Assembly (NCBI GenBank): GCA_032768795.1
Contig: CP136490.1
Span: 7,192,001-7,256,000, forward strand
Length of the DNA: 64,000 bases
Direction: 5' to 3'
Source: Tremella fuciformis
Taxonomy: Eukaryota > Basidiomycota > Tremellomycetes > Tremellales > Tremellaceae
The position numbers and the translations under genes were made by a program. Shown piece after piece: positions 2,436 to 23,186 of the stretch. Numbering within the stretch: position 1 is the stretch's first letter; the number at the start of each line of letters is the position of its first letter. The notes under the pieces are model-generated. The model worked only from the letters and a program-made list of their open reading frames with translations, ran no database searches and was not told the origin of the DNA.

Positions 2436-4465
2436 ATGTCTGCTCGCCCACCCACTTCGCCTGACCCAAGAGACAACGCCAAGAAGCAGAAGACAGTAGA
2501 GGTCAAGAGTGGGTCCTCTTCGTGCCTGTTTAGCCCCTCGACGTGTGTTACCATGAATGGGCGAGCTGACGTGCAGAGAAGGTCTGCTTGATGTGAGCCT
2601 GAATCCCTCAACGTCGAAGGCTAGGGACTCTCTTGCGCCTCCTCTAGCTTGATCCCCTCTTGCAGAGCGTTGCGACTCCTTTGTCGGCCCCGACTGACTA
2701 CCAGCGTCCACGATGGCTGGGGTATCTCGGACAACGAGAAGGGCAACGCCATCTTCCACGGCGACACCACCAACATGGACGCTATCCGAGACAAACACAA
2801 CTTTGTCGAGCTCGAGGCCCACGGTCTCGCCGTGGGTCTAAAGGAGGGTCTCATGGGCAATTCGGAGGTCGGGTGAGGCGTTTTGACGATACACCGAGCT
2901 TCAACTCAGAGTAGACACTTGAACATCGGCGCTGGACGCATTGTATGGCAGGACATTGTCAAGATTGATCAATGTCAGTCTCAAGCCAGCTACGGAAGAG
3001 ATGGCTGAGTAGCAGCAATCAAGAAGCACGAGTTTGAGAAACAGCCCGCCATCGTCGACTCGCTGAAGCACGCCGCCGAGCACGGCTCGAGACTACACCT
3101 CTTGGGTCTGATCTCCGACGGAGGCGTCCATTCCCACATCAACCACCTCTTTGCCCTGCTCCGCGCCGCCAAGGACCACAAGATTGAGCACGTGTACATC
3201 CACTTCTTCGGTGACGGCCGCGACACCGCACCGAAGTCCGCCTCGGGATACTTGCAGCAGCTCCTGGACTACATCAAAGAGGTCGGCGTGGGGGAGGTGT
3301 CCACCATTGTCGGGCGGTACTACGCCATGGACCGTGACAAGCGTTGGGACCGGATCAAGATTGCCGTAGACGGCTTGGTCGGCGGTGAGGGCGAGAAGTC
3401 GGATCAGGAGAACGTTGTCAAGGCTGTCGAGGACGGCTACAACAACGGCACAACCGACGAGTTCATCAAGCCGATCATCAGCGGCTCGGCGGACTCGCGA
3501 ATCAAGAGTGAGTCGCCACCTGGGATGTTGCGCTGAGTTGTCAGAGGGCGACACGCTCTTCATGTTCAACTACCGGTCCGACCGCATGCGTGAGCTGACC
3601 ACTGTGCTGGGTCTGCCTGACAAGCCCATGGAGGTCACCGTGCCAGAGGACTTGGTCAGCTGTCATGCTCGTTTCGTAGGCGCAGCTGACAAATAGCACA
3701 TCACCACCATGTCTCGCTACAACCCCTCGTTCACCTTCCCCGTCGCCTTCCCTCCCGCCTCGATGGACAATGTCCTTGCCGAGTGGCTCGGCAAGCAGGG
3801 TGTCAAGCAGTGCCACATCGCTGGTGGGCGTTTATCAAGTCCTATGACCACTCGCTGACATGGCAGAGACTGAGAAGTACGCCCACGTCACTTTCTTCTT
3901 CAATGGCGGTGTGGAGAAGCAGTTCCCAAACGAAGAACGTCACATGATCCCCTCGCCAAAGGTCGCAACGTACGACAAGCAGCCCGAGATGTCAGTCCAA
4001 GGCGTTGCGGACAAGGTCGCCGAGGTGGTCAAGACCAACGAGTACGACTTTGTCATGTGCAACTTTGCCCCGCCCGACATGGCGAGTCAACTTCCATGCT
4101 GCTGCTGAGGTGTGCTGACGCGGCAGGTCGGCCACACTGGCGTCTACGATGCAGCAGTCGTCGCTATTGGCGCCACGGACAAGGCGGTCAAGACTGTGTA
4201 CGATGCATGCGAGGAGGCTGGCTACGTGCTGTGTGTCACTGCGGACCATGGTAACGCCGAGCAAATGGTGGACCCGGAGAAGGGCACGCCATACACTGCG
4301 CACACCACCAACCACGTCCCCTTCATCGTGACCGGCGACAAGGGTGCATTGGAGGTGTCAGAGGAGCAGGGCGCATTGGCAGACGTCGCACCGACAATCT
4401 TGGCCATCATGGGTCTGCCCCAACCCGAGGAGATGAGCGGGCGGTCGTTGCTCGCAAAGCAGTAG
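2436..4465 (+). CDS. 2,3-bisphosphoglycerate-independent phosphoglycerate mutase
   Basis: Glycolytic enzyme interconverting 3- and 2-phosphoglycerate, of the manganese-dependent alkaline-phosphatase superfamily. The start is at 2436 ([17 protein letters not shown]). A very short exon carries KVCLI, then [15 protein letters not shown] binds metal, and [17 protein letters not shown] contains the catalytic serine. Further motifs are [39 protein letters not shown] and [11 protein letters not shown]. At least seven small introns interrupt it. The intron before VGHTG (4082-4126) begins with GC, not GT. The full length of about 550 residues matches the family. Many fungi carry this cofactor-independent form; yeast instead uses the cofactor-dependent enzyme. 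Confidence 0.95.
4082..4126 (+). other. GC-AG intron in phosphoglycerate mutase
   Basis: The intron starts GCGAGT and ends GGCAG. Only this splice joins PPDM to VGHTG, a near-invariant motif of the family, in frame. Using the nearest GT (in GAGTCA) breaks the frame. Confidence 0.8.
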
Positions 4466-4646
4466 TCGATGTCATTGCAGTAGAGACACGAGATCAGAGA
4501 TAGATGAAGCATGCAAGTAGAGTCAGCATCCGGGAGAGCGTGGAAGCGGTCCGGGCATTGCCACCCAGTTGACCGAATGTCGATGCTCACTCTGGTTTTG
4601 ACACTTCTTGTCCTTTCACATCTTGCCTCTGCATAGCACAAAACCC

Positions 4647-5862
4647 ATGGCGTCCAAGGCCAAAGACCCATTCTCGGGCTTGGAATTCTTCGACGACGCA
4701 AGGTTCCAGCCGCCAGAATGGGCCAAAGACTTTCCCGTCGCCTCGTCATCCTCCTCGTCTCGCCGACCTGGACCAAGCAGTTATAGTCGGACGGACGATC
4801 TGCAACCCCCGCCTTCATCCCACTCTGCCTTCAAACGGCCTGCCAGCACTTCTGTTGATGACCCTCGCGAGCATCAAGACGACGATGAGGACGAAGACGA
4901 AGTCTGGGCCGATGCGCAGGAGGAGATACATGAGCCGCCCGAGGTGAAAGATCCTGGGAAGGAGTTCACGGCGGACGAGCTGCATGTAGGTCTCTACATG
5001 GACCTGTGGTCTATGTGGGCACAGCTGAGCCTCAGACACTTCTGGAGAGCGCGACAAAGCTCAAAGACCAAGGCAACGCCTCGTATGCGTCCAAACCGCC
5101 TTCTTACGAAAACGCAATTGTCTCCTATACACGCGCTATCGAGTTCCTCCCGCCGATGCCCAAGAGACCGTCCGAGACCGCGCGCGGCAAAGCGCGGGCA
5201 GAGTCGCCTGCTGGTCCGCCCGGAGGAGGGGGACTGGTGGAAGTGACAGACGCCGAGGCGGAGGAGATTGAGCGCGAGCGGCTAGGGGAGAAGAGCGCCA
5301 AGAGGGTGTTGGAGGAGGCGCAGGATGCGGTGCGGGAGTGCGAGAAGGCCTGTTGGGGCAATCTGGGAGCGTGCCATGTTGCTTTGGTGAGTCGGTCAGG
5401 TGAAGGCAGCCTGGAGCTTGGCAGCTGATGAGAGAGAAAGACGACAAGGCCGCTGTGGAAGCGTGTACAAAGGCGCTCGAGATCGACCCGACATATGTTA
5501 AGGCCCTACAGCGCCGAGCGGGGGCCAACGACCGTATAGGCTCTTGGAGCTCGCTGACGGCTGCCCAAGACGGTGAGTTGGGACTCACATCAAGCACCAA
5601 GGAGTATGTGCTGAGGATAGACTACGCCGCTCTGCTCAATCTGCTCCCCGCTTCATCGCCACTGGTGCCATCTGTACGGAGGAGCTTGAACGCGCTGCCT
5701 GGCCGCATCAAACTCCAGCAGGAGAAAGAGAAGGACGAGATGCTGGGCAAGCTAAAGGAGCTGGGCAATGGGATCCTCGGCAGGTTCGGCCTGAGCACGG
5801 ATATGTTCAAGTTTGAGCAGCAGCCAGGCGGCGGCTACAACATGAGTTTCCAGCAGGGATAG
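4647..5862 (+). CDS. TTC1-like tetratricopeptide-repeat co-chaperone
   Basis: TPR protein of the TTC1 group, Hsp70/Hsp90-binding adaptors in the cytosol. The acidic, serine-rich N-terminus (MASKAKDPFSGLEFFDD, later DDDEDEDEVWADAQEE) leads into TPR helices beginning AEPQTLLESATKLKDQGN and YENAIVSYTRAIEFLP. A charged insert of about 50 residues precedes CWGNLGACHVAL and KAAVEACTKALEIDPTYVKALQRRA. The C-terminus GLSTDMFKFEQQPGGGYNMSFQQG matches the typical TTC1 ending. Introns lie near 4,990, 5,385 and 5,572. An in-frame ATG at 4608 would add 13 residues; 4647 has the better-looking N-terminus. The upstream gene ends 180 bp before on the same strand. Confidence 0.8.
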
Positions 5863-12101: not shown

Positions 12102-13468
12102 ATGCTCGCCAAGATATCCCGCCTCGTGCCTGCGGCGCTGGTCGCCCTAGTGATGGCTCAACGAGCTGTCGCGTTCCGCTACGTCGCCTACTGGGAGATG
12201 TCAGTCGACGTAATCCTGCCAAAGTTCCCACATTTCTGATCATACCAGCTGGGCTACCGACGACACACCATCCGCTGATCAGCTGGAAGGCGCGACGAAT
12301 ATCGTCTTGGGTGCGACTCCTCATGAGGAAGGCTCCCTGGCTTATATGTAGCATTCGTCAACATGACCACGATGACAGACTTTGTGGAGTCCAACAATGC
12401 CAACTTCACGCCCGCCTTCGTTGCCGATCTCAAAACCAAGACTGACGCCAAAATCAGTGCTGCCATTGGGGGCTGGGCTTTGGACGCCCTATACCCGTCT
12501 ATCGTGGCAACGAATGACTCTATGACCCAGTGGGCCAACGAAGTGAAAACATTCGTCGATACATATGGCTTGTAAGTCACGCTTCCACGCTACCTGTCGG
12601 CGACTGACTGCTAGGGATGGTGTTGACTTGGACTGGGAGTATGTCCCTTTCTGTAATACGTCCCGTTTCTTTGCTCATTGCCAGATATCCGAATGCAGCT
12701 CAAGGTCCCCAGTTCGTTCAACTCTGCACGACCGTCCGTAGTGTCATCGGGGCAGACAAAGTTCTGAGCATCACCGTCCCGGCAATACAAACAGACATGG
12801 GTGCTTACACCTCGACGACCATCCCTGAGTTCGAGAAGCAGATCGATTTCTGGAGCATAATGTCATACGACGCCGTCAATAGACTGTCTACGCAGTCAGG
12901 ATACCACGCTGGAGGCTCTGTAGTCAAGACAGACGTCGAAACTTATCAAGCCCGAGGCATGTCTCTCGAGAAAATGAACATCGGCTTCCCCATGTACGCC
13001 AAATGGTTCCAGCTCACTCAAGAGCAAGGCGCCACTTGTGCTGCCGCTAGCTCCCCCATCGGTTGTCCCATGGGACCCTTCCAGACATCGAACGGTACTG
13101 ATCTTGGCAACTCCAACGCCCTGACATACGACCTTTCCCTCTCGTACGACATCAACGCCGTGCCCCTCGCCACTATCGAGCAGTCCTGGGCTAGCGTACC
13201 CCCTACCGGCACAGACGATCTCAGTGAGGACGTGTGGGCGTCGGCCTGGTATGACTCCACCAACTTTTTGTTCTGGACCTGGCTCAGTCCCGAAGACATG
13301 TATCAGACATGCCAGAAGTGGAAGTCGCAGGTGGGAGGTGTCATGGTGTGGTCGCTGGATATGGACACCAATGGCGCCGGTGGGGGAGATCACTTTACCA
13401 GACTGCACCAGTGCATCACTGGGAGCAACAGCACAACTACAAAGCGGCGTCTGGAAGGCGATTATTGA
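12102..13468 (+). CDS. GH18 chitinase, secreted (paralog 1)
   Basis: Family 18 glycoside hydrolase cleaving beta-1,4 linkages of chitin, probably secreted for wall remodelling or feeding. The start at 12102 gives a signal peptide MLAKISRLVPAALVALVMAQ. YVAYWEIWA, NIVLAFVNM, KISAAIGGWALD (the GH18 SxGG-like strand) and the active-site motif DGVDLDWEYP are in order. MNIGFPMYAKWF and GVMVWSLDMD close the barrel. Introns are at 12200-12248, 12311-12351, 12572-12614 and 12639-12684. Between the last two lies a 24-nt exon (12615-12638) that encodes the catalytic D-x-x-D-x-D-x-E. No carbohydrate-binding module or GPI signal is evident. It is closely related to the chitinase at 21714. Confidence 0.93.
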
Positions 13469-13590: not shown

Positions 13591-13595
13591 GTACC
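13591..13595 (+). repeat. Target-site duplication, left copy (GTACC)
   Basis: The five bases GTACC directly precede the left LTR and recur directly after the right LTR (21015-21019). A 5-bp duplication is typical of Ty3/gypsy integration. Confidence 0.9.
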
Positions 13596-13908
13596 TGTCA
13601 AGACCGGACGTAGGATAGTCCGCGTCGAGCTGGGAAGTCGAGGTTGCCTCGCAGGGAGTATGCAATCGAGTAGGGTTACTAGAAGTAGACTGAGAGTACA
13701 AGAGATACATTCGACTAGAGATCTTCTCTACTCGAATGTCTACTATATGTATTCGAAAACCGTTCAACTATACTAGACAGTCCGAGTGCCGCATTTAGCA
13801 GTTCGGCTACTTCACCCGGATGAGGCAAGTGGGCGGTTGGCTGAGTCAGGCCGTGTGGCACTTGGCCTTGTCTCATTCCGCCACAGTCTCAGTGCCACAG
13901 TCCTGACA
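13596..13908 (-). repeat. 3' LTR of the retrotransposon (313 bp)
   Basis: It begins TGTCAAGACC and ends TCCTGACA on the plus strand. It appears identical to the right copy (20702-21014) wherever I compared them, including equal length. Confidence 0.95.
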
Positions 13909-14127
13909 GTCGCCCCCCTCTTCTTTGATGTCGACCCGACATCCTCGGTTGTTGACATCCTTTATTCGACGTTGCGTCCTTTGGCACTGTGTGTTCGGTT
14001 CGTTGAGGTAGATGCCACGCCCGTAAGCCCGAGAGACGCCGTTGTTTACCCCTTCATGCAAGTTGTTGTTCTGGTTGTTGTGTCCGGACTTCGTCTTTCT
14101 TGAGTCGTCTTTCGTACTGTTCTCATC
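13909..14127. other. Spacer between the 3' LTR and the antisense gene
   Basis: Apart from the polypurine tract there is no coding frame. It must hold the promoter and leader of the antisense gene, unless the adjacent LTR supplies them. Confidence 0.4.
13913..13926 (-). promoter_or_regulatory. Polypurine tract of the retrotransposon
   Basis: On the minus strand this reads AAAGAAGAGGGGGG and lies four bases from the 3' LTR, the position and composition expected for the plus-strand primer. Confidence 0.85.
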
Positions 14128-15807
14128 ATGGTCGACGACGAGCTGGCCGGATTCAATGTTGAGCAGGGCATACAAGATGCCTACGATGAGGCGTACCTCG
14201 GTACGGCCTCGGCGGACGACTATCGAATTCAACTCCAGGCCGCTCGAGAGAACCTCGAAGCGCAGCCCGAAAATGCCATTTTCAAGTTCGAGGTCGACAA
14301 GCTGGTTGCTGCGGGGAAGGCGGCTTTACGTCGAGAAAGGGATAAATCCGTGAGTCGAATGCCAGTAGACGAACTTCGAGTTAAGCTGTTAGGGTTCCTC
14401 TCCCGTAAAGTCGACTCCTGCTCGTGCTGAGTCGGTATTCCCGCCTATTCAATCGCCTTTCAAGGCTCCCCTTGCTCCCATCGGTCGTCTCTCACCCAAG
14501 AAACACATCTTGGATCCCTCTCCTATCTCTCGTCAACCACCCTTCGGCTCGAGCAGCATTCCCGAGACACCGGCTAGTCAAAAGGGTCATGCTCATCGCC
14601 CTTTGGGCTTCCCTAAGGCCGCATCTCCGCCTGCCAAAGTCGTGTCTTCGGCTACTGAGGTCGGTCTGAGCGACTTGTTCGGCTCGGCCCCCGACTCGAG
14701 CCCGGGTCAGCCGATCCCTACTCCTTCGCCGACCAAGGCAGGTCGAACTCCTAGTGGGGTGTTCCCGAGGGTTGAAGGCGAAGAGTTGGTGGTCAAGCGT
14801 CTGAATCGCGTGTATCGGTACCCGCTGAAAGAACCGGAGGTCGTTGGACACGACGACTCGAGGATCGAGTCCTTCTACTCGTGGGTCGAGTCGTATATTT
14901 CGACTCGTACTGGCGACACCGCGGATACCGGGTCGAACATCCTCGAAGCGCTCGACTCCGGCTCGTGGGGCGTCCTGATGGGGGCGGAGCGTTGTGCAGC
15001 CTGTGTGTCCCATAATCGCCCTCCCATGTCGGGCTACTCGGGTCTACTCTGCGTCTGCCCGGTTGTGGAGGTCGATGGTAGGCGGTATGTGGCGCAGAAG
15101 TACGTTTTCGACTTACCATACTCGATTTTCGCTGACGTATAGGTGTCTTGGGTGTATGCTCAAGTCGAAACACTGCACCCTTTCGCCCAACACCGCTCTT
15201 GGGCCCCGAGCTCAACTCGTCCTCCCTGCCGACGAGGTCGTTCGTCGTAAGGGTGTTATCGCAGGGATTCACCGCCAGGCAACAGCTCTACTTGCAGACG
15301 CGAAACCCGGTCTGGCCCGTAATGCTATCTTGGAGATCTATAGAATCAATTACTCCGAATATCAGGTAAGTGTAGTCGGATTTCGTCTTGGTCTTGTCGA
15401 GATCTGACTTGCAGCATTTGAACCGGACTGCATTCCGCGGCGAGTCTCAAGTCGCTCTGCTAGACTCGGGTGATCCTCCGTTGGTGTCTACACTCGACTG
15501 GAGCTCTTTGGACGACGCGATGGCCGAAGGCGCTGAGGAGGGGGTTGCGGGTCCCTCGGTGGTCGGTGGGGGTGGTTTGAAGCGGCTATTGGAGGACTCG
15601 CCCGCGCCCTCCATTCACTCGTCTCCCGACCGGCACCACTCGGTTACTCGACTTCTGTCTGCCCGAGCTGAGTCCCTCGAGTCGGAATCCGACATCCCGC
15701 ACCGCACGACCCGACTGCAGACCAAGGAGAAGACTGCCAGTGAGGCGAAGGCGCCACAGCGCGCCGCGCTTGGCGCCCTCAAGACGAAGCGCGGCCGCCG
15801 CAAGTGA
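14128..15807 (+). CDS. Antisense intron-containing gene carried inside the retrotransposon
   Basis: A spliced gene running opposite to gag and pol, between the pol stop and the 3' LTR. From ATG 14128, three GT-AG introns (14350-14410, 15100-15142, 15366-15414) join four exons of 222, 689, 223 and 393 nt, which stay in frame to the stop at 15807: about 508 residues. The N-terminus (MVDDELAGFNVEQGIQDA) is acidic and helical. A Ser/Pro-rich part follows, then VVKRLNRVYRYPLKEPE. A cysteine cluster (RCAACVSHNRPP, GLLCVCP, KCLGCMLKSKHC) is spread over exons 2 and 3. The tail is Ser/Arg-rich and ends KTKRGRRK, a likely nuclear signal. I recognise no known family. The Cys pattern suggests metal and nucleic-acid binding, which is inference. 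Its end is 32 bp from the pol stop, tail to tail. Confidence 0.75.
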
Positions 15808-15839: not shown

Positions 15840-18800
15840 TCATGCCGACTCCGTTCTCCAGCGCGGGGCGCGCCTTATGCGTTTCGCATCGGATACTAGG
15901 GATTCGACTTGGCTGTCCTCGATGCCCTTCATCCACGACTCGAACCGCGGGTCCCCCTTTAGAGAGTCTGTTGGTTGCCAGGTCGGTTGTTGGTACCCCT
16001 TCCATTTCACAAGGACCTGGTCCTCGAGTTGTCTTGCCTTACCCCGGGATCGTCGAGCTCGTTTCAGTACCCCTTCGACTTCGTAAAGCTCCTCCTCGCT
16101 AGTGTGTGGGGCTGGTGGCGGAGCGACCAGCGCGGGTTGCGCTTCGACTCGAGCCCCACGAACGTGCGACAAGAGCTCTACGTTGAAGACTGGGTGAACT
16201 CGATTGGCGACCAATTCCGGAGGCAGGTCCAGTTTATATGCGTTCTCGTTTATCCTTTCTAGTATGGGGTACGGTCCTACGTGACGGTGGTCGAATTTCC
16301 TAGTCGGACGGAGCGTGCGCAAGTTCTTGCCATTTAGCCAGACTTTGTCCCCTACTTGGAAGTCCGGTGTACGTCGACGCTTATCATATTGCTTCTTCCA
16401 CCCTTCTTGGGCTCTGAGCAAGTTCCCTCGTATTCGATGGTGCAGCTGTTCTAGCTGCTGAACCCGGTCGGCGGCTGCTGGAACTTGCAGGTCGGACAGG
16501 TCTCCTGGCGGATCGACTAGGGTCGTACGATATGCTCTCCCGGTGTAGGCCTCCAGGGGGCTCATACCCAGCGAGGCGTGGTGCGTGCTATTGTAGCAGA
16601 ACTCCGCGTGCGGCAGTAGGGGCACCCAATTGTCTTGTTCGAGGTTCACATAGTTGCGTAGGTACTGTTCCAGCCACTGGTTCGTTCTCTCGGTTTGTCC
16701 GTCTGTTTGTGGGTGGTATGCTGTCGAGTAGCGCAGGTTGGTTCCTAGGCCTTGGCAGAAGGCTTTCCAGAATTTGGATACGAACAGACTCCCACGATCC
16801 GACACTATGCTGTCGGGTATGCCGAAACGAGTATATACTCTATCCGTGAAGATTTCGGACATTCCTTTAGCGGTGATCGACTTGTGACAGGGCGCGAATA
16901 CTGCCATCTTCGAGAAGCGATCCACGACAACCATGATGGAGTCGTAGGTATTCGAGGTGGGCAGGTCGACTATGAAGTCCACAGACAGGTCTGCCCATGG
17001 TCGTAGTGGCGGTTCGAGCGGTCGAAGGAGGCCGTACGGTTTCTGTCTCGAGGGCTTGTTTCTTTGGCACTTCTCGCACTCCGCCGCAGATTTCTCTACA
17101 TCCGTCTTGATGTTCGGCCACCACCAGTGTTGCCTAATTGCCTGATAAGTCTTTCGGGGTCCAGGGTGACCGGCCGAGACTATATCATGATGTGCCTCGA
17201 TGACCTCTGTCCGAGACTTCGAGGGACAGTAGTATGCTTTCGAGTGTCTATAGTATCCTTGCGTGTCTTGGGTTACTTTTCCGTCCGCGATCAATGATCC
17301 TAGCTCGTCGTCCCCTTCGTACAAGTCGGACGGCGTCTTGCCCAGCAGCTGTACTTGTATGGAGAGTAGCAACTGTTCTGAGGACAGGAGCGGTCGGAAA
17401 TTGTGTCCGTTGAGTTCCTGAGACAGGCTCGTGGCTGTCGAGTCGGTGGGGAGGTAATCCGGTCTTCGACTGAGGGCGTCCGGTTTAGTACTTTGCTTCC
17501 CCGAACGATAGGAGATCTCGAAGTTGAAGTCTGCCATCATCTCTGCCCATCGTGCCTGTCGTCGGGTCAGTTGCTTGGTTGACAAGAAGGTTTCCAGGCT
17601 GCGGTGGTCGGTGAGCACTTGTGTCCGGTGTCGGGCACCTTCCAGGTAGTGTCGCCATTCCTTGAAAGCGTACACGATTGCCAAGAATTCCTTGTCGTGT
17701 ATCGGGTAGTTCAACTCGGCTGGCGACATGACTCGACTCGAATATGCGACTGGGCGCAGCCCATTCTCCCCGTCTTTCTGGGATATGACTGCCCCGATCG
17801 CGAAATCGGACGCGTCGGTCTCTACCACGCATTCCTGGTCTGGGTCATAGTGTTTCAGGACGGGTCCGGTCGTCATTTTCGTCTTGAGCAGGTCGAACGC
17901 CGCCTGGTGCGGTTCCGACCAGGAGAACGGGGTCGACTTCCGAGTGAGTTCGTGCAGTGGCTTAGCTACCTTGGCGAACCCTGCTATGAACCTTCGATAG
18001 AAGTTTGCAAAACCCAGGAAGGATTGGACTTCCTTGACGTTCCGAGGTGCTGGCCATGCCGACACCGCTCGCACCTTGTTCGGGTCCATCGATACGCCCT
18101 TCGGGTCGATGATGTAGCCCAGGAACTCTACGGAGTCGGTATGGAACTGGCACTTGTCGTGTTTTGCGAACAGTTCGAATTTCCGCAGTCGTTGTAGGAC
18201 TTCTTTGACGTGCCTCTCGTGCTCGCTCCGTGACTTCGAGAAGATAAGTATGTCGTCCAGATAGACTATGACGAAAATGTCCAGCACATCGCGGAATATG
18301 TGGTTCATCAAGTGTTGGAATGAGGCTGGGGCATTCGTGAGGCCGAATGGCATCACTCGGTACTCGAACAGCCCGAACCGAGTTCTGAATGCGGTTTTCC
18401 ATTCTTCCCCGGCGGCGATCCGGAGGAGGTTGTACGCGCCACGTAGGTCTATTTTTGAGTAGATAGTGGCCGCACGGAGTTGGTCTAGTAGATCTCCGAT
18501 CAACGGTAGGGGATAACGGTTCTTGACGGTTATGTTATTCAACTTGCGGTAGTCCACGCAGAGGCGTAAGGATCCGTCTTTCTTCTTTACGAATAAAATT
18601 GGCGAGGCCGCTGGCGACTCCGAAGGTACGATAAAGCCTTTCTTTAGGTTCGTATCCAAGTAGTCTCGGAGGGCCTCCTGTTCGGTCACGGACAGCGAGT
18701 AGATCGGGCCGAATGTCGGCTCAGCGCCGTCGAGTAGCGGGATGCGGTGGTCGAAAGGCCTATGAGGAGGTAGCTTGGTGGCCTCCGACTCCGAGAAGAC

Positions 18801-19382
18801 ATCCAGGAACTCGTGGTATTCCGTAGGTACCACTTCCTCCATCCGAGGTGGGTCCACGGAGATGGCTCGTAGGTAGATCGCCCCCTTGGGTTCGTCCGTA
18901 ATCTGTTCGAATGCCTCGGCCGAGATGAGGGAGATTGCTTTTAGTTTTCCCGACTTGCCCTGGTGTGATCTCGAGGGGGGAGGTTGAATGGCCAGGTTAT
19001 CCCAGTCGAGCGTTGGCTTGACTTCTTTGAAGAATGGCGCCCCAAGGATGATGGGGCCCACATCTAGTCTGGCGACCAGAAATGTAGCTGTGTAAGGCTG
19101 GAACCCTTCCCCTAGCAAGAGGGTGAGGGTAACCTCTTGTTCGATAGCGCTGCGGGAGCCATCCGCTAATCGTAGGGTCTGTTTGATTCTAGAAGGGCGC
19201 AATTTGAGTTTCGACTCGATGGCGTAGGTTTTCTCTATAAAGTTCCGGGAGGCCCCGGTGTCGAGCAGCGCTCGGGAGACTAGTGATTGTTTGTTTGCGA
19301 TCGCGACAGGTATATGGAAAAGGTCTGGGGTATCAGGAATAGCTGGCGTCGAGATTGGGAGTGCGGCGAAGGTGGCGGTCAC
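15840..19382 (-). CDS. pol: Ty3/gypsy Pol polyprotein: protease, RT, RNase H, integrase, chromodomain
   Basis: One open frame of about 1,180 codons counted from 19382. Aspartic protease LLDTGAS lies near residues 39-45. Reverse transcriptase has LRLCVDYRKLN near 272, MPFGLTNAPASFQ near 344 and the catalytic YLDD near 374. RNase H has ETDASDFAIGA near 521. Integrase has an HHCC zinc site (HHDIVSAGHPGPRKTYQ, then CEKCQ) and the D,D,E triad near 802, 862 and 898. The C-terminus has a chromodomain (YEVEGVLKRARRSRGK, then VLVKWKGYQQPTWQP), near 1,098-1,155. No stop or frameshift interrupts it. The frame is open some 38 codons further upstream over the end of gag, in the -1 frame, and the only initiator-like codon at the junction is GTG in GTGA. 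Confidence 0.95.
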   Translation of the reverse strand: MTATFAALPISTPAIPDTPDLFHIPVAIANKQSLVSRALLDTGASRNFIEKTYAIESKLKLRPSRIKQTLRLADGSRSAIEQEVTLTLLLGEGFQPYTATFLVARLDVGPIILGAPFFKEVKPTLDWDNLAIQPPPSRSHQGKSGKLKAISLISAEAFEQITDEPKGAIYLRAISVDPPRMEEVVPTEYHEFLDVFSESEATKLPPHRPFDHRIPLLDGAEPTFGPIYSLSVTEQEALRDYLDTNLKKGFIVPSESPAASPILFVKKKDGSLRLCVDYRKLNNITVKNRYPLPLIGDLLDQLRAATIYSKIDLRGAYNLLRIAAGEEWKTAFRTRFGLFEYRVMPFGLTNAPASFQHLMNHIFRDVLDIFVIVYLDDILIFSKSRSEHERHVKEVLQRLRKFELFAKHDKCQFHTDSVEFLGYIIDPKGVSMDPNKVRAVSAWPAPRNVKEVQSFLGFANFYRRFIAGFAKVAKPLHELTRKSTPFSWSEPHQAAFDLLKTKMTTGPVLKHYDPDQECVVETDASDFAIGAVISQKDGENGLRPVAYSSRVMSPAELNYPIHDKEFLAIVYAFKEWRHYLEGARHRTQVLTDHRSLETFLSTKQLTRRQARWAEMMADFNFEISYRSGKQSTKPDALSRRPDYLPTDSTATSLSQELNGHNFRPLLSSEQLLLSIQVQLLGKTPSDLYEGDDELGSLIADGKVTQDTQGYYRHSKAYYCPSKSRTEVIEAHHDIVSAGHPGPRKTYQAIRQHWWWPNIKTDVEKSAAECEKCQRNKPSRQKPYGLLRPLEPPLRPWADLSVDFIVDLPTSNTYDSIMVVVDRFSKMAVFAPCHKSITAKGMSEIFTDRVYTRFGIPDSIVSDRGSLFVSKFWKAFCQGLGTNLRYSTAYHPQTDGQTERTNQWLEQYLRNYVNLEQDNWVPLLPHAEFCYNSTHHASLGMSPLEAYTGRAYRTTLVDPPGDLSDLQVPAAADRVQQLEQLHHRIRGNLLRAQEGWKKQYDKRRRTPDFQVGDKVWLNGKNLRTLRPTRKFDHRHVGPYPILERINENAYKLDLPPELVANRVHPVFNVELLSHVRGARVEAQPALVAPPPAPHTSEEELYEVEGVLKRARRSRGKARQLEDQVLVKWKGYQQPTWQPTDSLKGDPRFESWMKGIEDSQVESLVSDAKRIRRAPRWRTESA

Positions 19383-20653
19383 GCTGAGGCGTACCTCGCC
19401 GCCGCGGGGCTGGGGTACGCCAACTTGTTTTCCGAATCGTCTTTGTCGAATTTCGTATGATCGAGGTTGGCGTTCGCATTCGGTGCTTCGTGTCTAATAC
19501 CATTGAGGCGGACTGCGTTCGCCCCCGATGCGGGGCTGTTTCGAGGAGCTCGCGTTTTCGGGGCCGTGGGGCAGTTGGCTACAATGTGATCCGGGCTCTC
19601 ACAGTATAGACACAGGTTTTTGTCCATCCGTCGCTGTCTTTCGCTGGGCGAGATCCTACCCCTCGAGTGTCCGTCGTCCTTCCGATATCTCTGGTTGGTC
19701 GGGGGTCGAGAGGGCGGATTCGGGGATCGAACGTAGTCCCTCGAAGGTCTGTCGGCGCGGTCGCGAGAGTGAGTTGTCGCCGGCGTCTCGCCGAACCTTT
19801 TCGAGGTAGCTCGCTCCGGCTCGCGCTGCAGCAAGTTGTTGCGGACACTGTCCTGCTGTACATTGAGACGAATCGCTACGTCCGCCAGCTCTTTTAGGGA
19901 TCTGGGCTCGTGCTCGCGATTCGCTATGGCCAGGCGGATCTCGGGTCGCAGACCCGACTCGAACATGTCTCGTAGGCTACGGTCCTCATACTCCACATCG
20001 GCTGAGATCGCCAGGAATCGTGCATAGTATTCCGAGACCGTGCGGGTTTGCGACAGTTTCTTGAGTCGCTGAACCGCAATTCGGTGTCTATCCGGGTCGC
20101 CGAACATGTCCTGTAACTCGGAAATGAAATGGTCCAAGTCGGAGCAAAAAAGGGGTTGTTCGATTTTCGGCCTGTTGAAGTACGGTTCCCACCAACGAAG
20201 GGCATTTCCCCGTAGGTAGGATGCCGCCCAAATGACTTGCCTCCGCGAGTCCAGGCCACCGCCTTGCATGCTAAGGTACATTCGTACCTGGGTAATGTAT
20301 TGCGGTAGCTTATCGCGGTCACCGTGATATTCATCTGGGGGGTTCACCTTGAAGGATCTCGTCGCGTTCGAAATCCTCTGAGCGGACTCGAGCGGCGAGT
20401 GGTCGTGGTCGAGATCCGTGTCCGTGATCTCTTCCAGGGGTGTACCTTGCGCGGCTCCCGTGTGATGAGTGGTTGCCGGGGTGGCCCGTTCGGCCAATGC
20501 GAGACGGGCGGCCGCTAGGGCCGAGTCGCTCTGCTCCTTGGCTTGGCGAAGCTCGAGTATCTGACGTCGGAGTTCCTCAACCTCCGTAGGAGTGTCGAGG
20601 TCCTCCGAGTCCGGGTCGACATGCGACCGTAGTTGGCGAGTGGAAGCACTCAT
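19379..20653 (-). CDS. gag: Gag-like capsid/nucleocapsid protein
   Basis: Starts at 20653 (MSASTRQLRSHVDPDSED), 48 nt from the 5' LTR. The first part has a coiled-coil-like segment (EVEELRRQILELRQAKEQ). The Ty3/gypsy gag capsid region follows (VNPPDEYHGDRDKLPQYI, RWWEPYF, LSQTRTVSEYYARFLAIS). Near the end is one CCHC zinc knuckle, CLYCESPDHIVANC (C-x2-C-x4-H-x4-C). Length is about 425 residues. The stop codon overlaps the pol frame by more than 100 nt, in the -1 register. Confidence 0.93.
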   Translation of the reverse strand: MSASTRQLRSHVDPDSEDLDTPTEVEELRRQILELRQAKEQSDSALAAARLALAERATPATTHHTGAAQGTPLEEITDTDLDHDHSPLESAQRISNATRSFKVNPPDEYHGDRDKLPQYITQVRMYLSMQGGGLDSRRQVIWAASYLRGNALRWWEPYFNRPKIEQPLFCSDLDHFISELQDMFGDPDRHRIAVQRLKKLSQTRTVSEYYARFLAISADVEYEDRSLRDMFESGLRPEIRLAIANREHEPRSLKELADVAIRLNVQQDSVRNNLLQREPERATSKRFGETPATTHSRDRADRPSRDYVRSPNPPSRPPTNQRYRKDDGHSRGRISPSERQRRMDKNLCLYCESPDHIVANCPTAPKTRAPRNSPASGANAVRLNGIRHEAPNANANLDHTKFDKDDSENKLAYPSPAAARYASA

Positions 20654-20684
20654 GTTCCTCGACTTGCAATACTCAGTGCGAGTA

Positions 20685-20699
20685 TAGTCGAATGTATCT
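20685..20699 (-). promoter_or_regulatory. Primer binding site of the self-priming type
   Basis: Two bases from the 5' LTR lies a 15-mer (plus strand TAGTCGAATGTATCT). Its reverse complement occurs inside the LTR at 20809-20823, so the RNA's own 5' region can pair with it. I see no match to a tRNA 3' end (no TGG start). Confidence 0.65.
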
Positions 20700-20701
20700 A
20701 A

Positions 20702-21014
20702 TGTCAAGACCGGACGTAGGATAGTCCGCGTCGAGCTGGGAAGTCGAGGTTGCCTCGCAGGGAGTATGCAATCGAGTAGGGTTACTAGAAGTAGACTGAG
20801 AGTACAAGAGATACATTCGACTAGAGATCTTCTCTACTCGAATGTCTACTATATGTATTCGAAAACCGTTCAACTATACTAGACAGTCCGAGTGCCGCAT
20901 TTAGCAGTTCGGCTACTTCACCCGGATGAGGCAAGTGGGCGGTTGGCTGAGTCAGGCCGTGTGGCACTTGGCCTTGTCTCATTCCGCCACAGTCTCAGTG
21001 CCACAGTCCTGACA
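20702..21014 (-). repeat. 5' LTR of the retrotransposon (313 bp)
   Basis: Same length and ends as the left copy. Reading with the element, a TATA-like box (TATAG, complement of 20849-20853) lies 31 nt before the inferred RNA start at about 20822. The start falls in an imperfect 14-bp hairpin (plus-strand arms CATTCGACTAGAGA and TCTCTACTCGAATG). U3 would then be about 190 bp and R-U5 about 120 bp. Confidence 0.9.
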
Positions 21015-21019
21015 GTACC
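21015..21019 (+). repeat. Target-site duplication, right copy (GTACC)
   Basis: Exact repeat of 13591-13595 directly after the right LTR. Confidence 0.9.
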
Positions 21020-21713
21020 GGTCATAAGCCGGACCAGAGGCGATGGGACCGAGGTTGAGGAAACGCCTGCGGTCTTGGCAAGTCTCGAGGCTGCAAGGTA
21101 GCCGAGCTTGACTAAACCCTACGCGCACGGAGCAGCCTTGGGAGACGACAGCAGCTCCGGTTGTCGCTCGTGTCTCAGCAGCATCCGCAAGATAGGAGTG
21201 ATTGTCCCGGTTGGATTGTCCTTGATACCTTTCATGCTTGGCTCCTGGAGGCCTAAGCCTGGTGCAAAACGACCTAAGACCCATTTGAATGGTGTTCATC
21301 CCGAGCAGCCCCTTGCGGCACGAGGAGCCTCGGGCCGTCCGAGACACGGACAGGCCACCGCGAAATATTGAATTGAAGGATAGTGTCCTTTCTGCCCACT
21401 TGATACACCCATGGAATCCTTTGACTACTCAGTAGTGCTACGCGTAACAGCTCTAAAGGTGCCAGCTGCTCAATCCTTTGTGGTCCTGGATTGCCGAGCC
21501 CCCTCTTGGATCGCCAAGCCCCGGATGGGCTATAAAAAGGTGCTAACAGGGAGAGGGCTTGAAACAGTCTCTCAACGCCGACCTCCTTGTATCTCTCACC
21601 GAGTGAGTGCTCTTCAGTCACAGCCTCGGAGTTGAGTTGACTTCTAAGCGCGACCGAGCTGGACTGGGTCGACCGACGCTCTTTACTTTCTGAATACTGC
21701 AAGTTGCCCTCAT
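21020..21713 (+). promoter_or_regulatory. Upstream region of chitinase 2
   Basis: No coding frame is supported. A good TATA box (TATAAAAA at 21531) lies 183 nt before the ATG of the second chitinase. Confidence 0.55.
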
Positions 21714-23186
21714 GCTCGCGGCAGCCTTAACACTTTGTGCGACTCTGGGCGCCGCGCTTGCCCTGCCGACGGATCCCACTTCTCACTGGGAGTCCGTCAG
21801 GAACACCAACTCGACCGAGAAGCGATATGTAGCCTATTGGTCTGTGTGAGTATTCGTCCCAAATGACTGCTTTCCCCGTACTGAAAGCCCACAGATGGGC
21901 TCAGGGCTTGAACCTTCCTACCTCGGATCAGCTGACGGGTGTCACTCATGTTGTGCTCTGTGGGTTCAATCCGGTTGATGATCCATCAGCTGACGGCGAG
22001 CCTTCGTTGACATGGACACCTTCTCTGGTTTCTGGGAGGCGTACAGCACCCCAAACCCGTTCACCACAGCCACCGTCTCGAGCGTTCGCTCCGCTTGCAA
22101 CGGATGCAAAGTCATGGCTGCCTTTGGTGGCTGGAATCTCGACCAGGACTTCAGGACTTTCTCGGCCACTCCAGACTCTCGGACCCAGTTTGCGAGCAAA
22201 GTCAAGGCCTTCCTGGAATCGTACAACCTGTAAGTCTCATGCATAAGGCGAAGATGTCGTATTGAGACAGGCAGAGACGGTGCCGACATAGACTGGGAGG
22301 TGAGATACTATACCCCCACACTGTCGGCTTCATCCTTTCACCATCACCCTTTCCTTTCTGCGTCTTCGAGGGATGGACTGACGTACAGTATCCCGTGTGG
22401 AACAGTGCCAACTACCTGACCACCGAGCCGGAAAACGATGCAGACAAGACCAACTTCCCGCTCATGCTTTCCGCCCTTCGGAGCGCCATACCCGACAAAC
22501 TTATCTCCATCGCTCTCCCTTCTCGACACGCCGACATGCTCGCCTACGACAAGGACAGCATCTCCCAAATTGACCCCTCTGTCGACTGGTACAATCTCAT
22601 GACATACGATTTTGTAAACAGACGAGACAACGAGACGAATTACCACGCCGGCGACGTCGTGGTGCAGGATTCGATCGATACCTACGGCGCCATGGGCATG
22701 GACAAGACGAAAATGAACATTGGCTTCCCCATGTACGCCAAGTGGTTCTGGCTCGACGCGACGGACGCGCCTCTCTGCACAGCCAACCCGCCAATCGGAT
22801 GCGCCATGGGCGGATATGAGAACCCTACCAATGGGGCGGACACCGGACTGTCCGGGGTGTGGGTATGGAACACGGACCCGGCTGCCGAGATCAACGTCGT
22901 GCCTACTGCCACAGACGGCAGTGATGTGCAGGGTATTCAGGCCAGCTTCAATGCCTTGCCTTCAGACGGGAGCGCCAGCTCCCCTGACAAGCTGGCCAGC
23001 GCCTTCTTTGACAAGACCTACTCGCTGTTCTGGACGTGGGTCAGCGCCAGCGACATCCAGCAGACCTGCCAGAAACGGATCAGTGAGGTTGGTGGGGTGA
23101 TGGTCTGGAGTATCAACCAGGACCAGAATGGCGCAAGCGGTGGCCCGCACCTGCAGGCCCTCGCCGAGTGCATGGCGTCAGCCTAA
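21714..23186 (+). CDS. GH18 chitinase, secreted (paralog 2)
   Basis: Second secreted family 18 chitinase. The start at 21714 gives the signal peptide MLAAALTLCATLGAALALP, then EKRYVAYWSVWAQG. Strand motifs are THVVLSFVDM, KVMAAFGGWNLD and the active-site DGADIDWEYP. Then come MNIGFPMYAKWFWLD, NPPIGCAMGGYENP and GVMVWSINQDQNG. The active site lies on a 25-nt exon (22275-22299), matching the split seen in paralog 1, so the two genes share exon architecture. The protein ends at CMASA with no binding module. It is probably a tandem duplicate of the gene at 12102, the pair now being pushed apart by the retrotransposon. Confidence 0.93.

Follow-up and report, generated by a model that had tools for sequence, protein, structure and literature searches.

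Antisense open reading frames (ORFs) between pol and the 3' long terminal repeat (LTR) are a known kind of gene in LTR retrotransposons, and passages of PMC7264820 and PMC11963269 treat their function and origin as open. We analyzed a gene in this position in a 64,000-nucleotide (nt) stretch of the Tremella fuciformis genome (assembly GCA_032768795.1, contig CP136490.1, positions 7,192,001 to 7,256,000 of the forward strand), hereafter the window. A Ty3/gypsy element of 7.4 kb, whose 313-nt LTRs are identical and whose target duplication reads GTACC, lies on the minus strand of the window and carries a four-exon gene on its antisense strand. This gene is a protein gene under purifying selection, its introns pass through the retrotransposition cycle, and its product is a candidate regulator with a zinc-cluster-like cysteine domain.

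Among fungal elements, the brtn gene of Boty-like elements of Botrytis cinerea is reportedly the subject of Zhao et al. 2011. Passages of PMC8365987 and PMC4227169 mention brtn of these elements, a Monilinia transcript similar to BRTN appears in part of PMC5987419, and a passage of PMC7264820 names Boty as a non-plant example of antisense ORFs in the interval from pol to the 3' LTR. As far as these passages go, Boty is like our element in being a fungal LTR element with an additional antisense gene (PMC7264820); it has a CHROMO domain (PMC4227169), which in our element scores below the cut-off. It belongs to another fungus, however, and the likeness to brtn is drawn from these descriptions.

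In plants, a passage of PMC7264820 describes for gene23 of maize Grande, which our gene resembles in layout, a promoter of its own and a nuclear product, and DNA binding has been predicted for TRP28 of Silene Retand (PMC7264820 and PMC11963269, in passages). According to the same passages these two and rice RIRE2 share with our gene the antisense ORF, but they come from plants and have another protein domain, and Retand belongs to a lineage outside the chromoviruses. Neither PMC7264820 nor PMC11963269 uses the word "intron". A literature search that left most subscription journals outside listed no paper describing antisense genes with introns or a zinc cluster in retrotransposons of fungi. 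Antisense accessory ORFs as such are already known; what we did not find in this literature is an intron-bearing zinc-cluster type that recurs across families.

A parallel in layout is HBZ of human T-lymphotropic virus 1 (HTLV-1), which is spliced and encodes a basic leucine zipper (bZIP) protein. A passage of PMC11963269 reports its nuclear localisation. Both are antisense genes placed at an LTR element's 3' end, with a nuclear product, although the nuclear site is predicted in our case, and HBZ is a bZIP protein of an animal retrovirus, likened here by layout and not by homology.

Antisense gene, selection and intron survival

The gene lies on the plus strand between pol and the 3' LTR, with its ATG at 14128 and its stop codon ending at 15807. 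The stop of pol (15840, minus strand) is 32 nt away, and the two genes are convergent. Removal of introns 14350-14392, 15100-15142 and 15366-15414 gives a product of 514 amino acids (aa) without a stop. Intron 1 has an alternative acceptor at 14410 (14350-14410, 61 nt), in the same frame, that gives 508 aa; a 7-nt length difference between subfamilies is located within 14350-14392, and both acceptors, 14392 and 14410, are candidates. The features of the gene are as follows.

13909..14127, plus strand: leader of 219 nt between the 3' LTR and the antisense ATG; by position, presumed promoter and 5' untranslated region
14128..14349, plus strand: exon 1 (frame, copy alignment, selection test)
14350..14392, plus strand: intron 1, 43 nt here and 50 nt in three older copies, with a possible second acceptor at 14410 (frame, copy alignment)
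14393..15099, plus strand: exon 2, which carries near its end the first part of the Cys cluster (CAAC...CVC)
15100..15142, plus strand: intron 2, 43 nt, with CTGAC near the acceptor (frame, copy alignment)
15143..15365, plus strand: exon 3, with the second part of the Cys cluster (CLGCMLKSKHC)
15366..15414, plus strand: intron 3, 49 nt, GTAAGT...CTGACTTGCAG (frame, copy alignment)
15415..15807, plus strand: exon 4, with a basic C-terminus, KTKRGRRK, a possible nuclear localisation signal

A first-pass annotation of the window had proposed a plus-strand gene of four exons, open through GT-AG introns, with a Cys cluster and a basic C-terminus, and our analysis recovered all of these. Of the intron lengths it gave (61, 43 and 49 nt), the last two were confirmed, whereas 61 nt corresponds to the alternative acceptor and 43 nt is equally open. 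These lengths are ordinary here, because two putative introns in a neighbouring gene of the window measure 41 and 49 nt.

Selection was measured as the ratio of non-synonymous to synonymous divergence (dN/dS) by the Nei-Gojobori method with our own script. Comparison of the window gene with the copy at C1:743214 gave dS 0.180 and dN 0.026 (ratio 0.14), and with the copy at C9:523980 dS 0.445 and dN 0.069 (0.16); the ratio between these two copies was 0.14, and five closer pairs ranged from 0.09 to 0.37, from 12 to 21 changes each. As a control, exons 2 and 4, the two longest, were read in their five remaining frames and gave 0.32-2.59. Changes at codon positions 1, 2 and 3 numbered 21, 9 and 62 against C1:743214 (62 of 92 at the third position) and 49, 26 and 133 against C9:523980 (133 of 208), and the introns differed at 8 and 15 of 135 sites, respectively. 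For the 3' part of pol the ratio in the same pairs was 0.14, from 256 alignable codons, and 0.07, from 449. Constraint on the antisense gene thus equals that on pol in the first pair and is weaker in the second. These results show that the antisense frame is a protein gene under purifying selection.

A genome search with the antisense gene returned 19 matches at 17 loci, a lower bound. Fifteen loci are full length (12 at 99-100%, the others at 94, 93 and 86%); of the two interrupted loci, one lacks 206 nt (intron 1 with parts of exons 1 and 2) and the other is split by about 435 nt. After splicing, 14 of the 15 full-length copies are open, and in all 15 the GT and AG of the three introns are intact and all seven cysteines are kept. 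Among 14 of the 15, length differs only by 7 nt within intron 1 and by 3 nt within exon 4. Among the 38 pol candidates scored (see below), all 16 matches of the window's type (family A, 93-100%) are paired with an antisense locus, 14 directly adjacent and two at 25-27 kb within one LTR pair, the latter presumably split by later insertions. The gene is thus neither restricted to this insertion nor decayed in its other copies, two of the three findings that the first-pass annotation had named as fatal to its proposal.

Precise loss of an intron was seen at none of the 17 loci. In ten copies the LTR pairs are exactly 7,106 nt apart and the LTRs are given as 100% identical to those of the window, and because of this the ten look recent. 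These data show that the introns pass through the retrotransposition cycle, as had been expected from their antisense orientation; splicing from an antisense RNA is a separate matter, and a predicted one. The introns would persist because the genomic RNA that is reverse transcribed reads them as CT...AC and would not be spliced. The family gives a direct view of how an element copied through RNA can keep introns of the spliceosomal type. In the young copies of family A the LTRs are given as 99-100% identical to the window's and several antisense genes are at 99%, so that the LTRs are the more alike. The copy at C1:2851241 (L044) has an additional insertion of about 655 nt between the LTR and the antisense ATG.

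Older traces of the gene were found at two loci. At L048, positions 4437-5005 hold a decayed relative (39 and 53% identity, with stops). It stands tail to tail with the remnant of a pol end (41%), and an insertion of 48 nt lies no more than two codons from the place of intron 3; at L049, positions 4251-4370 hold another (63%, one stop) in which the first CxxC is kept as CEGC. The arrangement of pol and antisense gene is therefore older than the present family.

Cysteine clusters in four element groups

The cluster of the window protein, C-x2-C-x15-C-x-C-x14-C-x2-C-x6-C, takes in all seven of its cysteines, and none of 20,000 residue shuffles reproduced this pattern, which was defined after being seen. 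We searched the genome with pol, scoring 38 of 464 candidates, and obtained further matches at 48-52% identity. The side between pol and the 3' LTR was read at six loci, which we assigned manually to five groups (L050; L051 and L053, 99% alike; L052; L056; L057). Three of the five, here called B, C and F, carry antisense genes with clusters of the form CxxC-x(6-9)-C...CxxC-x(6-7)-C, and four of their five genes have introns, of 39-49 nt. With family A, four of the six groups read in this one 28-Mb genome carry one or two such genes.

Groups B and F each have two antisense Cys-cluster genes as a tandem pair. Gene 1 of group B (L050; second copy L055) has introns of 44 and 39 nt and the motif CWWC...CHTCVKRGKTC, and gene 2 has introns of 40 and perhaps 42 nt and the motif CEQC...CLRCNSQGLPC. 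In group F (L057, a single genome match), gene 1 has a 49-nt intron and CDRC...CARCVGLARSC, and gene 2 is intronless and reads CSACFKAKRPCLKVEGPHKCAHCNKNRGNC (C-x2-C-x6-C-x8-C-x2-C-x6-C). The single gene of group C (L051, L053) encodes 268 aa, C-x2-C-x6-C-x17-C-x2-C-x7-C, has 19 genome matches, and contains introns of 39, 40 (GC-AG) and 42 nt. Models with a GT-AG second intron were dropped, because the substitutions between two subfamilies have a coding pattern, it seems, in one frame as far as 926 and in a different frame beyond; the 40-nt GC-AG intron, chosen after seeing the data, fits and is likely. Between L051 and L054 there were 19 synonymous and 7 non-synonymous changes (dN/dS 0.12). 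LTR pairs enclose the antisense genes in C (198 nt, AGGGA on both sides), B (679 nt, 99.85%; a matching target duplication beside them was not seen) and F (at least 550 nt). Of 2000 first-order Markov randomisations for B and 2000 for F, one in each set produced the cluster pattern, compared with the two that each group really has; this pattern was defined after seeing A, B and F, and C does not match it (x7, not x6, at the end). By blastp within a set of five proteins, B gene 2 matched F gene 1 at E 5e-5 and F gene 2 at E 0.001-0.003. The stretches after the clusters look helical by eye.

Two side observations concern these loci. Between L050 (560-2500) and L055, substitutions and indels fall in about the first 600 nt of the antisense region, with three differences in the next 1.3 kb, a pattern that suggests recombination or gene conversion between copies. 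At L056, a Cys-pattern match in a low-complexity repeat was not counted. On the reverse complement of this locus, a stretch at 2925-3206 looks by eye like what is presumed to be the last exon of B gene 2, without an intact Cys cluster, and is perhaps a decayed counterpart.

The spacing of Zn2Cys6 domains (PF00172) is C-x2-C-x6-C-x(5-16)-C-x2-C-x(6-8)-C. F gene 2 fits it, both B genes, C and F gene 1 come near, and family A fits only in the CxxC-x6-C of its second half. The likeness to Zn2Cys6 factors such as GAL4 and Pho7 lies in the two CxxC-x(n)-C halves, but the genes here are carried by retrotransposons and score below the Pfam cut-off, and family A has longer loops and seven cysteines. 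F gene 2 scored 12.9 bits against PF00172 (cut-off 21), and Zn_clus touched three of the six cluster peptides (best E 0.013, none above cut-off); by that cut-off, the window protein, F gene 2 and the six peptides all fall outside the family. NCBIfam, searched with the four B and F frames, gave no accepted hit. A profile of the six clusters found two matches at E<=10 among 177,635 PDB sequences, Pho7 (E 0.22) and C27B12.11c (E 0.32), both in entries named as transcription regulators, and the top PDB match of F gene 2 was GAL4 (E 0.43). The combined matches lean towards a zinc-cluster fold without proof; we suggest that the domain may work like a Zn2Cys6 domain, and claim no membership of PF00172.

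Among public proteins, the 514-aa product had no homologue in the 7,994 candidates sharing most words (E<=0.001), and its residues 202-400 had none in 952 candidates (E<=1). Fungal pols are present in that database; among 120 of 5,579 matches listed were those of Tremellales sp. Uapishka_1 (53%) and Trichosporon asahii (52%). That the first-pass annotation recognised no family was nearly right, with no Pfam hit and no public homologue, except that the cluster weakly resembles Zn2Cys6.

Proposed function and its alternatives

We propose, with a probability of about 0.55, that the gene encodes an antisense, spliced, nuclear, zinc-cluster-like accessory regulator of the element. The antisense strand of the element would thus hold a second transcription unit, with its start in the 219-nt leader or in the 3' LTR and with splicing by the host. 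The protein would enter the nucleus via its basic tail, its zinc cluster would bind nucleic acid, probably DNA, and it would regulate the element, for example its LTR transcription, chromatin state or target choice. The earlier suggestion of a DNA- or RNA-binding cofactor is favoured by the zinc-cluster-like motif in three other element groups. Antisense coding may let an RNA-copied element keep introns and so obtain a regulator by ordinary host splicing that is not read from its genomic RNA.

A broader proposal, to which we give somewhat less than even odds, is that LTR elements of this fungal lineage share an undescribed module of one or two antisense, mostly intron-bearing zinc-cluster genes, transcription factors that would control their own LTRs in parallel to, and independently of, retroviral HBZ. 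For the gene described here the kind of motif can be recognised, selection has been measured and the introns are conserved; because these are known and four of six groups in one genome carry such genes, the function of antisense genes is testable in a compact system.

Several results weigh against a zinc-cluster regulator. The Pfam scan of the window protein accepted no family, and all similarities to Zn2Cys6 lie below significance or cut-off; the PDB profile matches span only positions 1-19 of 43. The iron-sulphur family NADH-G_4Fe-4S_3 (E 0.026) outscores Zn_clus (0.13) on F gene 2, and on the cluster peptides NADH-G_4Fe-4S_3 (0.014) and GRXCR1-2_C (0.023) touch one each, about as well as Zn_clus. 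In family A the first loop is long and there is a seventh cysteine, and blastp in the five-protein set detected no homology of A to B or F (E >= 0.3), so the class is defined by place, orientation, introns and Cys layout. Two of the five further groups (L052, L056) have no such cluster outside the low-complexity repeat. Within family A, exon 4 is unconstrained against C1:743214 (dS 0.039, dN 0.040; the ratio is 0.25 against C9:523980), a 20-nt tandem duplication in exon 3 shifts the frame at C1:2851241, and the intron-2 donor at C9:523980 is weak (GTATGA). Selection does not tell a regulator from other roles, and the putative expression, splicing and DNA binding are read from sequence.

It is possible, though we think it unlikely, that the protein instead serves the particle or integration complex as an accessory factor, such as a nucleic-acid chaperone or an import or targeting factor, with a cluster that binds RNA or protein. 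Maintenance under selection and the basic tail suit this role, and zinc-binding motifs can bind RNA. However, antisense coding would separate the protein from gag-pol dosage, and the layout of the cluster is weakly nearer to DNA-binding Zn2Cys6 factors than to CCHC knuckles.

Much less probable is that antisense RNA is the main product, tuning pol or triggering silencing, with the protein secondary. The gene converges on pol at a distance of 32 nt, and its RNA would complement the last part of the genomic RNA; such roles are discussed for plant antisense ORFs in part of PMC7264820. A pure antisense-RNA role, which the first-pass annotation had offered as regulation of pol, does not explain selection at the protein level, nor is it favoured by length differences confined to intron 1 and exon 4. 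Similarly improbable is a captured host gene carried as cargo, also raised at first. Its introns of 43-49 nt are like the two putative host introns in the window, but the 72 genome matches to the antisense protein (E<=10) consist of copies of the element and of decayed relatives, in a search that might overlook a strongly diverged host gene; comparable genes sit in three further element groups, and public proteins yielded no homologue. A chance open frame is refuted by the selection test, and the dN/dS, splice-site and Cys conservation leave it a negligible probability, with no point found in its favour.

Host element and its flanks

The element fits Ty3/gypsy in its LTRs, target duplication, gag and the order protease, reverse transcriptase, RNase H, integrase. 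LTR identity is 100% over the 300 nt compared, both LTR ends were read from the sequence, and its LTR has at least 40 genome matches. With identical LTRs and GTACC on both flanks, the original description of an intact LTR retrotransposon holds. Its features are listed below.

13591..13595, no strand: target-site duplication GTACC, left copy (read from sequence)
13596..13908, minus strand: 3' LTR, 313 nt, same sequence as 20702-21014
13909..13926, minus strand: purine-rich stretch adjoining the 3' LTR, AAAGAAGAGGGGGGCGAC on the minus strand, a likely polypurine tract
15840..19493, minus strand: pol, 1217 aa (Pfam: aspartyl protease, reverse transcriptase, RNase H, integrase, Tf2-1-like SH3)
19379..20653, minus strand: gag with CCHC knuckle CLYCESPDHIVANC (stop-to-stop frame 19379-20833; start ATG and knuckle by eye)
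20685..20699, minus strand: 15 nt near the 5' LTR, complementary to part of the LTR, a likely self-priming site
20702..21014, minus strand: 5' LTR, same sequence as 13596-13908
21015..21019, no strand: target-site duplication GTACC, right copy (read from sequence)

The gag frame, recognised by its position and CCHC knuckle only, overlaps pol in a different frame. The Chromo domain (PF00385), the criterion for chromoviruses, scored 19.2 bits at residues 1137-1187 of pol, below the cut-off of 25.1 (E 0.0011). The 15-nt LTR-complementary stretch after the 5' LTR is as would likely be expected for a self-primed element, for which Tf1 is the comparison.

The element is flanked by two similar genes (12608-13468 and about 21700-23186) that resemble GH18 chitinases by eye. 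They share a 46-nt stretch at 91%, and the element seems to split a tandem pair.
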